The notes under the pieces: generated by a model
What the model was told of the DNA's origin: nothing
The model's database searches: none
Seen by the model: the letters and a program-made list of their open reading frames with translations, nothing else
Shown here: in pieces, positions 41,912 through 47,392 of the stretch
Numbering within the stretch: the stretch's first letter is position 1
Layout: each line of letters starts with the position of its first letter
Translations under genes and position numbers: made by a program
Assembly (NCBI GenBank): GCA_034387635.1
Contig: JAOANU010000006.1
Location: forward strand, 310,001 to 374,000
Origin: Rhodosporidiobolus odoratus
Lineage: Eukaryota; Basidiomycota; Microbotryomycetes; Sporidiobolales; Sporidiobolaceae
Direction: 5' to 3'
DNA length: 64,000 nt

Positions 41912-42102
41912 TTGACTTTGGTGTATCGGGAAGTGGCGGTCGAAAAGGATAGGGCAGTGCTGGGTGAGCAGCGCAGTGGTCGTAAGCTTTCTCTGTGAGA
42001 GCTAGTCGGGCAGCGAGCTAGCGCTGATGGTGAGCGTGGATTTGTCGATGAACAGGTTGGCATCGCCTTTGAAAATTTGAGCAACCGAAAGGATCACAAC
42101 TA

Positions 42103-42205
42103 CAGCCGATCTCACAATTTGCTTCAAATAGAAATAGGAATGTCCCGAAACTCGAGAAATAGGAATGAATTAGGAAAGCTCCGACTCGTCCTCGAACTCG
42201 CTTCT
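42103..42205 (+). repeat. Left terminal inverted repeat (103 bp)
   Basis: Starts CAGCCGATCTCACAATTTGC immediately after TA (42101-42102) and ends at ...ctcgcttct. Every base equals the reverse complement of 47014-47116. The identity stops sharply at both edges (42100 C against 47119 A; 42206 differs from its partner). Within the repeat, GGAAT(A/T)-like steps (aggaatgtcccg, aggaatgaatt) occur twice and could be transposase-binding sites. Confidence 0.95.
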
Positions 42206-42405
42206 CACGGCACGATGGGCGGCTGGAGCGACCTACCAGTGTGCGTGCTGGGTTCTGCCATGTCTGAGCACCCATGCCTAGCCACAAGAGCTGTTGAGAC
42301 AGTGACGTCTTGTCCTCCGCTTCCTTCTTTCAGCTTCGTCCTTTCATCGCTCGCTATCTTCGCGCAATTCTCGTCTGATCTCGACCCAGTCTCCTAGCAA
42401 ACGTC

Positions 42406-45400
42406 ATGCTTTCGCCCGCAGCCTTGCTCCGTACGTCGCCTGCCGGTGAGCCTTTCTTCCATTCTTTCTCCTTTGCCCTCTTTCGACATCCTGTAATGTC
42501 ATTTGCCTATTAAGCTGTCAGTCCGTTCAAATCCGGCGGCGATATATATGTCGATCCGCAAGCGACGCTTGCCCCGATACCCAACTCTCCGTGCGAGGGT
42601 GGGCCATCGTCGCAGGATGACGTCGGTACGTCCTCTCGTATCCCTCCATTCCTCGACAACAGTTGACACATCTGGTGATGCAGTGGGATCATGCATCGTC
42701 TGCAAAGAACCCCTTCCTCCCTTCCGTACTTCTCGCTACCTCCACGAGGTCCGCGTCGTGCTCGACAAAGCCGGCGACAAGATTACCGCCTCCCGTCACA
42801 GCTGCCCCACCGCGGTGCGCTGCCAAACCGGGATATGTGCTATGCATCGCAGAGAGGCACAGGTGAAGGGCTGGGTGGAGAGGCAGCAGTGGCCGCTCAA
42901 GATCAGGCTCGACCGTGTGAAAATCATCGAGTATGTTTCCCTTTTCTTTCCTTGGCAACAACCTGTCCTGATGCCCCATCTGGCTAAGTCGCGTGCAGCG
43001 TGACGCTCTTCCTCACTTGCAAACCATCATTGACAATCCTGAGTTGTCCGATCTTCTCCGTGTCGCTCTCCGTGGTCGCGGGGAGTGGGGTACTTTCGAT
43101 CGCTTTACCGGCGGCTAGTACGCCAATCTTCTCCTTTCCGAGCAAGACAACACTGATCTTGCCTGTTCCAACAGTTACGGTCCCATTGGTCGAGGTATTG
43201 TCGAAGAAACACTCCTCGCCGCACTTGCAGGCCGCCCGACCGAGTCGTCCTGTGGCCCTCCGATCCCCCGCCCTCCTTCGTCCGCTCAGTATCACCTCAC
43301 GTCAGTTTGAGCTTGAACGAGTTTGTGAACCGCATCCTCGTTCCAGAAGCGGTCAACTTCCTCATCTCGGAAGATCTTGGCGTCTCGTTGAGCGATGCGA
43401 ACGCGCATCGTGATGCGTCTAGCGAGGCCGGCTTCCTCCTCCTCGGAGATCCAAAGAAGGTCTACACAGAGCGGGATTGGGCAATGATGCGGGATGGGAC
43501 GGATGGAATCGCTCACGCCGACCGAGATGATTTGACGGCCTGCGAGCGGCGAGCGCCAGAAGGACGAGGGAAGCGTCGGGGGCGTGGTCAGCGGGATTTT
43601 GGGCGTGCGTATCTCTACCGCCTTTGTCTTCTGCTCTCTCAGGTACTTACTTTTTGCTCGTACTGTAACAGCCGACTTCATCCTCGACCAAAATTGCTCA
43701 TTGCCCCCCTTACCCTCTGCTGCTCTCATCGGCGCTCGTCCTCCTACCAAGAAAGCGAAGAACGCCGCCAGCAAATCCGCCCTTCAGGAGATATCGTTCC
43801 TTCCCAATCTGCGCTCGTCATCCATTGCGAGTACGCCTTCTACCCGCGAATCCTCTCCACCCTCTCCCCTTGCCTCTGCCTCTGCCCAGCCCGTATCGAT
43901 TCCCCCGCTCTTCAACACGGCCGATCTCCACGCCTTCGGTTTGAAAGCTGGGAGGAAGGCCCTCGCTGCAAGTCGGCAGGCGGAAAAGTCAAAGAAGGAT
44001 AAGCAGGCAAGTGAGAGACAGGCGGCGAAGACAGCGCGGGAGCTTGAAGCAGCCGCTAAGAAGGAGGCGCAGGTCGCTCAGGCAGCGGCGGAAGCGGCAG
44101 CGACGGAGGAACGCTTGGATGCTACCGCCGTTGCTTTTTCCATCGAGCTCCGCGGCATGCCCGAGTCACGAAACGGGAAGCGCGGTCCGAAGCCAAGTAA
44201 ACCGACCTTCGAGTGGATTAAGAAAGGTGGCGGCGAGTTTTTCCGTCCAGACTCGCGGGAACAGGTTGAGCAGAAGATTCTCGACACGCTGGGCACCAAT
44301 ATCGCGAGAGAGCGTGTGGAATGGGATGCCCTCGAGTATCGTGTGCGTACGGCCACGGGCAGGGCGTCATGGATGGCGTGGGCTAGCGGGTTCGCATCAT
44401 TCCGCTCAACCGTCACTGCTTCCGCCGTCAAAACAGTCAAGACTATGGTACCGGAGATCCTCCAGGTCCGAGTTGTCGCAAAAGAGGTGCGCACGGGCTC
44501 ATTTCCTTCCTCCTCATCCGAGCTGACACGTGTCTTCCTTTCTCAGGATCCGCTCTTCCCGATGGGCAGAAGGGCTGCAGCCCCTCCTTCTCCGTCTGAA
44601 GAGCCTGAAGAGGTGCGATGCCCTCTATCGTCTCTCGTTACACGCAGTACTGACCCGTTCCTACATCTGTGCAGGACATGGCCGGCGGAAGTATGCAGCA
44701 TATTGCCCAACTGAAGACGCAATATCCGATGAAGCACTGCAGTACCTGCGCAAGCGAAACCCGCTGCTGGATCAGCGCAGATGGACAGCACCTCACCCTG
44801 ACCAAAGAGAAGCTTCGAGTTTGGGCCTCTCAAATCGTATGTCCATGCTGTCTTCCCCTCCATTTCCGTTCTATCCAACAACTATTGGCCTTTCTTGTCC
44901 ACCCTGTGCTTATGCCCTCGAGCACTGTGCCTGCTCCAGTACTGACCATACTAGTATACAGGCTGCTCGTACACCCGGAGTTGACTTGCAAAATCCGCCA
45001 GCGACCAACACCTTCCGGCCTCGCGCTTCGAACATTCCGCCTCACCTGAAGCAGGCGGGCCCGGGATGCGGGTATCCCCTGCCCCCCTCAACTCCGTCGC
45101 CAGCTACCGCCTATGGTCTTCCGGGTGCGCCGCACCCGGCTGCGCATCCGGGTTTCAACCCCTGGGCTGCCTACGGTCCGTTTCCGTCGTACGCTACCCC
45201 GGCACCCCCTGCCGCGGCGCCACCGTTCTCTCCGTTTGGCTACTACCCGCCTCCCCCGCCTTCCGCCTACGGCCCGACGCAGCCTCAGCTGCCGACCCCT
45301 CCGCCGGCGCTGGCCCGTACGCCTCCTCCGGCGCCTCCTCCTCTCACGCTCTCTGACTTTGTCGACCGCTACAGACTCAACGTGGACGTTGAAGTGCTGC

Positions 45401-45582
45401 GGAAGGTCGGGGTGGATCTCGGAGACCCTGGCATTGCCAGCGACTTCGAGAACCTGCGTATGTCGGACTGGGAGCAGAACGGCGGAAAAGTCTTGGGCCA
45501 TGCTCGCACGTTGCGTATGCTGCGGGAATACCGGTCGGACCGAGTTTCAGGAGCGGAGCGTGCAACTCCGACGGGTCTCTAA
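42406..45582 (+). CDS. RTC4-like-domain protein, transposon cargo/accessory gene
   Basis: Ten exons: 42406..42445, 42515..42625, 42684..42934, 42999..43117, 43175..43246, 43306..43604, 43672..44486, 44547..44612, 44675..44836, 44962..45582 (851 aa, phases checked). Regions in order: a short Cys motif ('GSCIVCKEP') and 'SCPTAVRCQTGICAMHRRE' (aa about 50-110, possible zinc site); an RTC4-like domain ('GGYYGPIGRGIVEETLLAAL', 'EFVNRILVPEAVNFLISED', 'ASSEAGFLLLG'); an Ala/Lys/Glu coiled coil ('AKTARELEAAAKKEAQVAQ'); a segment with 'MKHCSTCASETRCWISADGQ'; a Pro/Tyr-rich linker; and a C-terminal SAM-like helical domain ('LTLSDFVDRYRLNVDVEVL'). RTC4 domains occur in telomere/chromatin-linked fungal proteins. 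Its place inside the element suggests an accessory transposition, targeting or host-interaction factor; that is inference. Exon 2 uses an AAG acceptor. Confidence 0.7.
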
Positions 45583-45604
45583 TCCGCTCTGCCTTCAGAA
45601 TGAA

Positions 45605-46860
45605 TCACTTTGCCCTAAATCTTGTTTTCTCGTAAGCGTCTCTCATTTGTACTGTGCAAACTCCGTACATAACAACATGGCTTGCTTCTATATGTTCCAT
45701 CCCGAATATCGGAAGAGTCCCCGCGCTCGTTCGCCATCTATCAATCCGGCAGCGTGTTCGAGACCCAGCGCTGCATCCTCTGAGAGAGTGGGTACCGTAC
45801 TCGCGCAAATGCTGCTTGACTGCGAGGGTTGTGGAGAGTCAAGGTAAATCCGGCGGAGGGAGAATTGAATTGCTTACTTTGGTGAAAGGAGCCTTCAATG
45901 GGATTCAAATCTGGGGAGTACGGTGGGAGGAAGACAAGTACAACCCCTGCGATAAGAAGGCGTGAGTTGGCTGCCTAGGTAACTCCAGTTGAGGGTTTGT
46001 AGAGGGTAAGGCAGCGGGACAGGCGGAAGAAACACACCAGCGGCTTCCAGCAGCTCACGGACCTGGTCAGATTTATGAATGACCGCATTGTCGAGGATTA
46101 GGACGGAGCGAGGCAACGGAAAGGGCTGCATATTCGGGAGCTGTTAAACGACAGTGGCTATGTTATCAAATGCACCATTTAGACGTGAAGATCAGGAATA
46201 ACGCACAAGTATCTGCCGCACATACTCAGCAAATCGGCGCCCGTTGATGTTGCCTTCCAACGCTTTGCCCGCAATCATACCCTCCAGCCCGATGCCAGCA
46301 ATCAGCGACAACCGTTTCCCTCGCCCGGGCGGCCGTCTGACCTGCGCCTTCGTCCCTTCCAAGCTCCACCCATAGCGGCGGTAACAGTCCCGATCGTCTT
46401 TAGCGCTCTCATCGACGTAGATGCATTGGTCGGGGCGAAAGTTGGCGGCCATGAAAGCCGCGTAGCGGCGACGCAGTTGCTCGTTACGTTGGATGGCCAC
46501 AGGGCTCAGCTTCTTGAAGGTGATGTCGTGAGCCTTGAGAGTGCGCTGTATGGTACAGCGCGGCGAGAAGAAGCCGAAACGCTCGTGGGCGAGGACACTC
46601 AACTCACGAAGGAAAGCGTCGGGGAGGCCGAGGGCGAGGTCGACGATATGAGCGATCTGAGTAGGAGATAGAGATCGAGGTCGGCCGGCTCGAGAGGGAC
46701 GCGGGTGGGGATGACCTTGTTCACGATGGAGGGCGAGCCAGTTGTAGATGGTGCGAGTGACGGTCCCTAAAGCGTGCGCGACACGCTCGACCGACCAGCC
46801 TTCATTATGGTAGAGCACAATCGCGCGGTCACGCATGTCGTTCGATCGGTATGCGGGCAT
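45605..46860 (-). CDS. IS630/Tc1/mariner-type DDE transposase, possible 3' frameshift
   Basis: Four exons: complement(45605..45819, 45878..45946, 46038..46140, 46207..46860). The N-terminus is a helix-turn-helix: 'MRDRAIVLYHNEGWSVERVA', 'TRTIYNWLALH', 'RPRSLSPTQI'. The catalytic triad is visible as D in 'CIYVDESAKDD', D in 'VLILDNAVIHKSD' and E in 'FLPPYSPDLNPIEGSF'. Family members normally end with a helix like 'DAALGLEHAAGLI...FRYSGW'. Here that sequence is present but in the +1 frame after 'HLREYGTHSL' (near 45780-45784), stopping at 45688. In the zero frame a different 60-residue tail runs to 45605. So the last helix is lost or altered unless a base is wrong. It is convergent with the cargo gene; the 22-bp gap between stops suggests overlapping 3' UTRs. 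Confidence 0.8.
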
Positions 46861-47013
46861 GTTGAGAGGAAGATGGCATAGAAGGCGAACGGCGAAAGGC
46901 GGGAAGGTGCGAGGACATCAACACGCGCATGGGCAGATCTGCGATGTTGGACAGCACAGCAAGGAACCGCACAGCAGCCATCAGAGGCTCAGCAGAACCA
47001 ATACACGAGCGTA

Positions 47014-47116
47014 AGAAGCGAGTTCGAGGACGAGTCGGAGCTTTCCTAATTCATTCCTATTTCTCGAGTTTCGGGACATTCCTATTTCTATTTGAAGCAA
47101 ATTGTGAGATCGGCTG
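47014..47116 (-). repeat. Right terminal inverted repeat (103 bp)
   Basis: Reverse complement of the left TIR without mismatch, followed by TA at 47117-47118. The transposase start codon (46860) lies 153 bp inside this end, so the interval 46861-47013 must carry the transposase promoter. Confidence 0.95.
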
Positions 47117-47392
47117 TAAGCCATTACAAGTCAAACCTAATCTGCCTAAGCAATGTTACTTCCGCTCGCATCTGCTGATTCAAGCCGGGAACGGATGCAC
47201 ATCGCTCACGAGCGCACTGAAGCGCACCGTACGGTAAGAGGAGCGACGCAAAGACAGCAGCGACAGAGATAAATCAGCTTCCTCCCCCACTTGCGAAGGT
47301 CATCCACAGCCTATCCCTCTCGCCAAGGCAGGCGCGCAACTTGACAGAAGCCTTCGCTGACTAAAGCCTCGCCCTACGTGCGCGCAAGCAAT

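Follow-up and report, generated by a model that had tools for sequence, protein, structure and literature searches.

Two genes between long inverted repeats

The window examined in this work, that is, the whole stretch of 64,000 nucleotides of Rhodosporidiobolus odoratus DNA (G000:C6:310001-374000, from an assembly of 24.8 Mb in 45 contigs), carries at positions 42103-47116 a unit of 5014 bp, which is named here the C6 element after its contig. Between its terminal inverted repeats (TIRs) lie a transposase gene of the IS630/Tc1 type and, convergent with it, a second gene of the RTC4 type. The left TIR (42103-42209, plus strand) and the right TIR (47010-47116, minus strand) were delimited by inverted-repeat comparison and are 107 bp long with 106 matches, the 103 outer positions being identical and followed by one mismatch and three further matches. 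When extended by the flanking TA, which was read directly from the sequence at 42101-42102 and 47117-47118 as the two copies of the target site, the repeats match at 108 of 109 positions. At such length a chance origin of the identity is excluded. Both ends begin with CAGCCGATC, with TA outside each, and the motif TAGGAA is found three times in the TIR, at positions 33, 58 and 69 counted from the end. In this comparison the coordinates, perfect 103-bp inverted repeat, CAG ends and flanking TA of the original prediction, which had been made from the letters of the window, were all found to be correct. The GC content of the element (0.574) equals that of the window (0.573).

The transposase gene runs on the minus strand from 46860 to 45688, and its spliced model of four exons encodes 305 amino acids. 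The product of this model matches Pfam DDE_3 (E 1e-29), the D, D, E catalytic domain is present in the own-genome alignment, and the spacing from the second D to the E is 34 residues (DD34E; counted by eye with the exons joined), in agreement with the earlier claim of a DDE transposase retaining all three acidic residues. At the N-terminus the winged-helix/helix-turn-helix families HTH_29 and HTH_23 lie above the Pfam cut-off. The last exon can be read in two ways: with a last intron of 58 nt the junction suits the sequence of the relatives, after which the expected frame is lost (as compared by eye), and with an intron of 98 nt the frame stays open up to the expected end. Of 7997 candidates scored in a protein-database search with the transposase, 2440 were relatives at E <= 0.001. 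Basidiomycetes supplied the best named ones, the top one being an IS630-like transposase of Pleurotus pulmonarius with 38% identity, and a PDB sequence search gave no match.

The second gene (42406-45582, plus strand) starts at the opposite TIR and encodes 851 amino acids in a spliced model of ten exons. RTC4 is the sole Pfam family found in its product at E <= 0.1 (E 1.2e-6; 29.1 bits against a curated cut-off of 23.7), and the layout of the protein is that of a Cys/His finger, the RTC4 domain, low-complexity linkers and a C-terminal domain. The finger exon (CIVC ... C ... CAMH; 42684-42934, plus strand) was aligned to an RTC4-type gene on contig C8, its ends being one of several junction choices. 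The best-conserved half of the RTC4 domain (profile positions 76-119) was located by profile search at 43310-43441. The C-terminal domain, common with the second gene of an element on contig C40, lies at 45337-45543; both are on the plus strand. The terms finger, Ubl-like and Cys domain, as used in this work, are labels from sequence appearance and not database matches. As to the large ten-exon convergent gene that had been predicted, such a model can indeed be built, with nine in-frame junctions, and carries the RTC4 match, but three of its nine introns start other than GTA or GTG; two of these have GTA/GTG alternatives, and the third is needed to remove an in-frame TAG. Structure prediction in the present analysis yielded nothing usable (predicted local distance difference test score, pLDDT, 36).

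The ends of the C6 element are shared by two 447-bp miniature inverted-repeat transposable elements (MITEs), located at separate TA sites at C6:1161757-1162204 and C2:908383-908829. They are identical to each other at 442 of 447 bases, their matching arms measure 41 nt including TA, and TAGGAA recurs at positions 33, 58 and 69 in one end of the single MITE examined (its TA removed). That the MITEs of this family occupy differing TA sites bears on the mobility of the family. End fragments of the same family were found at C1:2539314 and C10:825370. The first of these (C1:2539314-2539520) is diverged (82%), about 210 bp long and separated from the contig end by about 1.2 kb; the transposase search gave no match next to it, and no TTAGGG repeats were present in the stretches taken from the C1 and C12 contig ends.

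Related elements and RTC4-type genes in the same genome

Searching the genome with the C6 transposase led to loci on contigs C2, C40, C34 and C12. The C2 element (C2:1784399-1789389) measures 4991 bp between CAG ends, has TIRs of about 235 bp with 227 of 236 positions alike, and has unlike flanks, TG and TA. Contig C40 carries an element of about 3.0 kb (approximately C40:21575-24598, the exact ends being uncertain), with TA at its likely ends and a repeat of 174 nt in which 163 positions are alike. The C34 element (C34:65677-69076) spans 3400 bp between TIRs of about 250 bp that show no mismatch, and TA flanks it as it does the C6 element and both MITEs of the C6 family. In the first kilobase of C12 a fifth IS630-type transposase (E 2e-7) is interrupted by the contig end. 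The C6, C2 and C40 elements share one plan, in which the second gene starts from the TIR on the side away from the transposase and is directed towards the latter, and the TIR sequences of C2 and C40 are unrelated to those of C6. Relative to the two inferred start codons, the inner edges of the TIRs lie at -11 and +19 nt in C2, at +9 and 0 nt in C40, and at +30 and +34 nt in C34, whose second start codon was assigned by guess.

Four places were found to carry RTC4-type sequence, namely a gene on C8 without long TIRs and the three TIR-bounded IS630 elements on C6, C2 and C40. An RTC4 profile search of the genome gave matches at three of these places (C8 and the C6 and C2 elements), and the finger exon of C2, when searched at E <= 10, had no match beyond itself, C8 and the C40 element, the latter two at E 1.7e-7 and 2.9e-6, respectively. 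It was through these two queries alone that paralogues of the C6 second gene emerged, as an own-genome protein search for them gave none at E <= 0.001. For comparison of the domains, every reading frame of 25 codons or more at each locus was set against 47 control stretches of 2 kb. None of the 47 controls reached the scores of the C6 C-terminal domain with C40 (55), of the C2 finger with C40 (105) or with C8 (110), of the C2 Ubl-like region with C40 (46, the top control having 44), or of the C6 RTC4 domain with C8 (85), to which this domain is closest. The finger exon of C6 scored 45 with the C8 gene, a value reached by 2 of the 47 controls. In a BLASTP comparison of the C6 second protein with the other loci, C8 was the sole match (E 1.6e-4), two control hits having E values of 0.20 and 0.33.

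The C8 gene, read by eye from six-frame translations, has a finger and an RTC4 domain and ends in a low-complexity charged tail. The C-terminal part of the element type was not seen there by eye, and each C-terminal query was matched or outscored at this locus by at least one control. Long inverted repeats were not found at C8 either; the longest measures just 23 nt (83%), and the gene thus does not lie within an element of the C6 kind. From its sequence, C8 looks like a host-type RTC4 gene.

The C34 element was considered as a fourth member and rejected. Hand-picked pieces of it aligned well in two of three domains, but in the all-frame test 8, 10 and 13 of the 47 controls were as good, and its last exon matched only itself in an own-genome search. 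As its domains are indistinct from controls and its last exon stands alone, C34 is not counted as a member. Five inverted pairs of matches to the C34 end, each spanning 388-389 bp, were also noted (C10:83858-84245, C20:81917-82305, C2:485414-485802, C10:335913-336301 and C5:649485-649873); given the inverted orientation and constant span, these are probably members of another MITE family, one that the C34 element mobilises.

A transposase tree was built from the four transposases of this genome (with the end of the C40 sequence incomplete) together with 60 relatives from the database, these being 60 of the 91 in the chosen length range among 120 listed. C2 and C40 were sisters (100/100), C34 grouped on a long branch with Mycena and Lyophyllum sequences (99/89), and C6 stood alone in a part of the tree lacking resolution. 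The C6, C2 and C40 transposases are widely diverged. Holding the three as one clade was not rejected (P value of the approximately unbiased test, p-AU, 0.446), so the two-gene plan may have arisen once, though these sequences do not prove it.

Origin and possible role of the second gene

The matched TIRs, the TA, the DD34E transposase and the RTC4-type gene bear out the proposal that this is a Tc1/mariner-type element with an extra gene. We regard the C6 element as a two-gene IS630/Tc1 DNA transposon inserting at TA, and its second gene as a conserved accessory derived from a host-type RTC4 protein, and give this reading a probability of roughly three in four. It is favoured over chance cargo because a related gene stands in like place and orientation in the highly diverged C2 and C40 elements. 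Such recurrence in two distant elements makes the second gene look like a working part and not a stray passenger. Where the original prediction left its product as either accessory factor or captured cargo, the accessory alternative is the one favoured over chance cargo. As in its family, the transposase would bind the TIRs and cut and paste at TA. The second protein would have been built from a host-type module of finger and RTC4 domain, with an added element-specific C-terminal part. Its gene would travel with the element and may be co-expressed with the transposase, because in C2 and C40 both start codons are preceded by nearly identical TIR sequence. Tentatively, the mechanism that seems most plausible for the second protein is that of a nuclear cofactor binding element DNA or chromatin and aiding the transposase in end assembly, target choice or gap repair.

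Several observations weigh against this reading. The similarity between the C6 and C2 second proteins beat the controls in no domain: with C6 queries, as-good controls out of 47 numbered 31 for the finger, 7 for RTC4, 9 for the Ubl-like region, 11 for the Cys domain and 13 for the C-terminal domain, and hand-picked pieces were only mildly unusual against shuffles (RTC4 24 of 2000, C-terminal 42 of 2000). With direct similarity this weak, the family link is a transitive one, through Pfam, C8 and C40. The second gene of C40 has no RTC4 Pfam match and its element is shortened, C34 carries a convergent reading region without demonstrated homology, and the C6 TIRs, unlike those of the other elements, end 150 and 197 nt ahead of the starts. 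In protein-database searches of limited sensitivity, the database itself containing fungal proteins, the 871-aa model of the C6 second protein had no homologue at E <= 0.01 (7994 candidates scored, a list that low-complexity words may have crowded), and residues 145-360 of a 552-aa piece had none at E <= 10 (1694 candidates). The third odd intron of the gene model (57 nt, 43062-43118) has a weak donor, GTCGCT, and no GTA/GTG alternative. As it is the only intron found that removes the in-frame TAG at 43116-43118 (plus strand, seen in the reading frame), the gene may be either intact or newly damaged, and the C6 copy may be broken. Finally, the prediction that full-length 5-kb copies would be found at other TA sites was not borne out: three DNA queries (left end, transposase half, second-gene half) run against the 24.8-Mb genome, with only the best candidates scored, found no second full copy, although the two 447-bp MITEs share the element's ends. 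A second full copy of the C2 or C34 element was likewise not found by DNA search; C40 was not searched by DNA.

It could be argued that a host RTC4 gene was captured by chance and that its protein is of no use in transposition. The presence at C8 of an RTC4 gene of host type that lacks long TIRs, and to which the C6 RTC4 domain is closest (score 85, above all controls), agrees with such passenger cargo, and the in-frame TAG would fit a useless passenger. Yet three diverged elements bear RTC4-type second genes in like place and orientation, and the C-terminal domain common to C6 and C40 was not found at C8, so that we hold mere cargo to be quite improbable. The same shared domain bears on the proposal that the C6 and C2/C40 lineages each acquired a host RTC4 gene separately, as this would require a shared source or a second coincidence. 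C6 and C2 are each nearer to C8 than to one another, and their transposases do not form a demonstrated single clade, but a slowly evolving host gene would yield the same distances and, as described above, one clade was not rejected; repeated capture is in our opinion unlikely. That the unit is false, with two unrelated MITEs flanking the transposase and RTC4 genes by chance, is extremely improbable even though MITEs of the C6 family do exist. The two ends agree at every position for 103 bp, longer than the 41-nt MITE arms, are inverted with TA outside, and face each other across both genes, which is not what an unrelated solo MITE at 42.1 kb would give, and the layout recurs at C2 and C40 with unrelated TIR sequences. 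The other arrangement named in advance as refuting, transposase-only copies together with an RTC4 gene at a fixed locus, was not found in this genome.

An alternative of another kind is that the second gene acts against the host, blocking silencing or DNA-damage surveillance through a telomere-linked RTC4 function. Yeast Rtc4 is described as nuclear and cytosolic, with a genetic link to telomere maintenance and an unclear function (PMC6162548). The anatomy expected of such an anti-host gene equals that of the accessory reading, and no result obtained here separates it from a transposition cofactor; still, we consider this role rather unlikely. A report of RTC4 within a transposon was not found in the open-licence papers searched, and among the titles and abstracts listed none dealt with an element of this kind. 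Among rusts, Puccinia novopanici was reported to have 45 RTC4 proteins and P. sorghi 15, a difference that was interpreted as a DNA-damage adaptation (PMC9370660); this expansion might be transposon-borne. In a broader form, which is doubtful, a fungal IS630/Tc1 lineage would have made a host telomere-linked RTC4 protein a standard factor of transposition or host evasion, driven by twin TIR promoters, and the RTC4 genes of rusts would then be mostly carried by transposons. If true, the accessory reading of the C6 second gene could alter how RTC4 gene-family expansions are interpreted and would give RTC4, with its unclear function, an assayable context. A conserved second gene outside the ciliates would also mean that the Tc1/mariner group can build multi-protein systems.

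Comparison with known systems

Tc1/mariner is the textbook transposon that needs its transposase alone. Like the C6 element, ordinary Tc1/IS630-like elements encode a DDE_3 transposase of about 320 aa, and unlike it they average about 1300 bp, contain one open reading frame (ORF) and end in TIRs of about 30 bp (PMC7325037). The same source indicates that long TIRs are by themselves not unusual, those of Minos having several hundred bp (PMC7325037). With the RTC4 family (Pfam PF14474, including yeast Rtc4 and the C8 gene) the second protein of C6 has in common the RTC4 domain and, with C8, a finger-like Cys/His motif; it differs in its added C-terminal part and in lying between TIRs. Among fungal cargo-carrying elements, that around ToxA is said to hold a host-interaction gene as cargo within a mobile unit. 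Both cases place a non-transposase gene within a mobile fungal unit, but the second gene of C6 belongs to a set of related genes in three diverged elements.

Elements of the Tc1 group with extra genes are known from ciliates, where the relevant passages describe TBE and Tec (PMC4724952, PMC7325037). The TBE elements of Oxytricha, like C6, combine a Tc1/mariner transposase with further genes, one of them reverse-oriented, and these further genes, one with zinc fingers, are under purifying selection. In contrast to C6, TBE elements have three genes, including one for a 57-kD protein with zinc finger and kinase domains, have TIRs of about 80 bp with a telomeric repeat, and belong to the ciliate germline, with no mention of RTC4 in the passages available (PMC4724952, PMC7325037). 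The Tec elements of Euplotes share with C6 a transposase of the DD34E type, extra ORFs (three in Tec, one of them in the complement) and very long TIRs, which in Tec measure about 700 bp, but have a site-specific recombination function, and an RTC4 gene is not mentioned in the passage concerned (PMC7325037). The accessory proteins of the ciliate type, a recombinase or a zinc finger/kinase protein, were not found in the C6 second protein, where RTC4 was the only Pfam family at the threshold used. The likeness of C6 to Tec and TBE, all of which carry genes beyond a Tc1-type transposase, is one of layout and not of membership.

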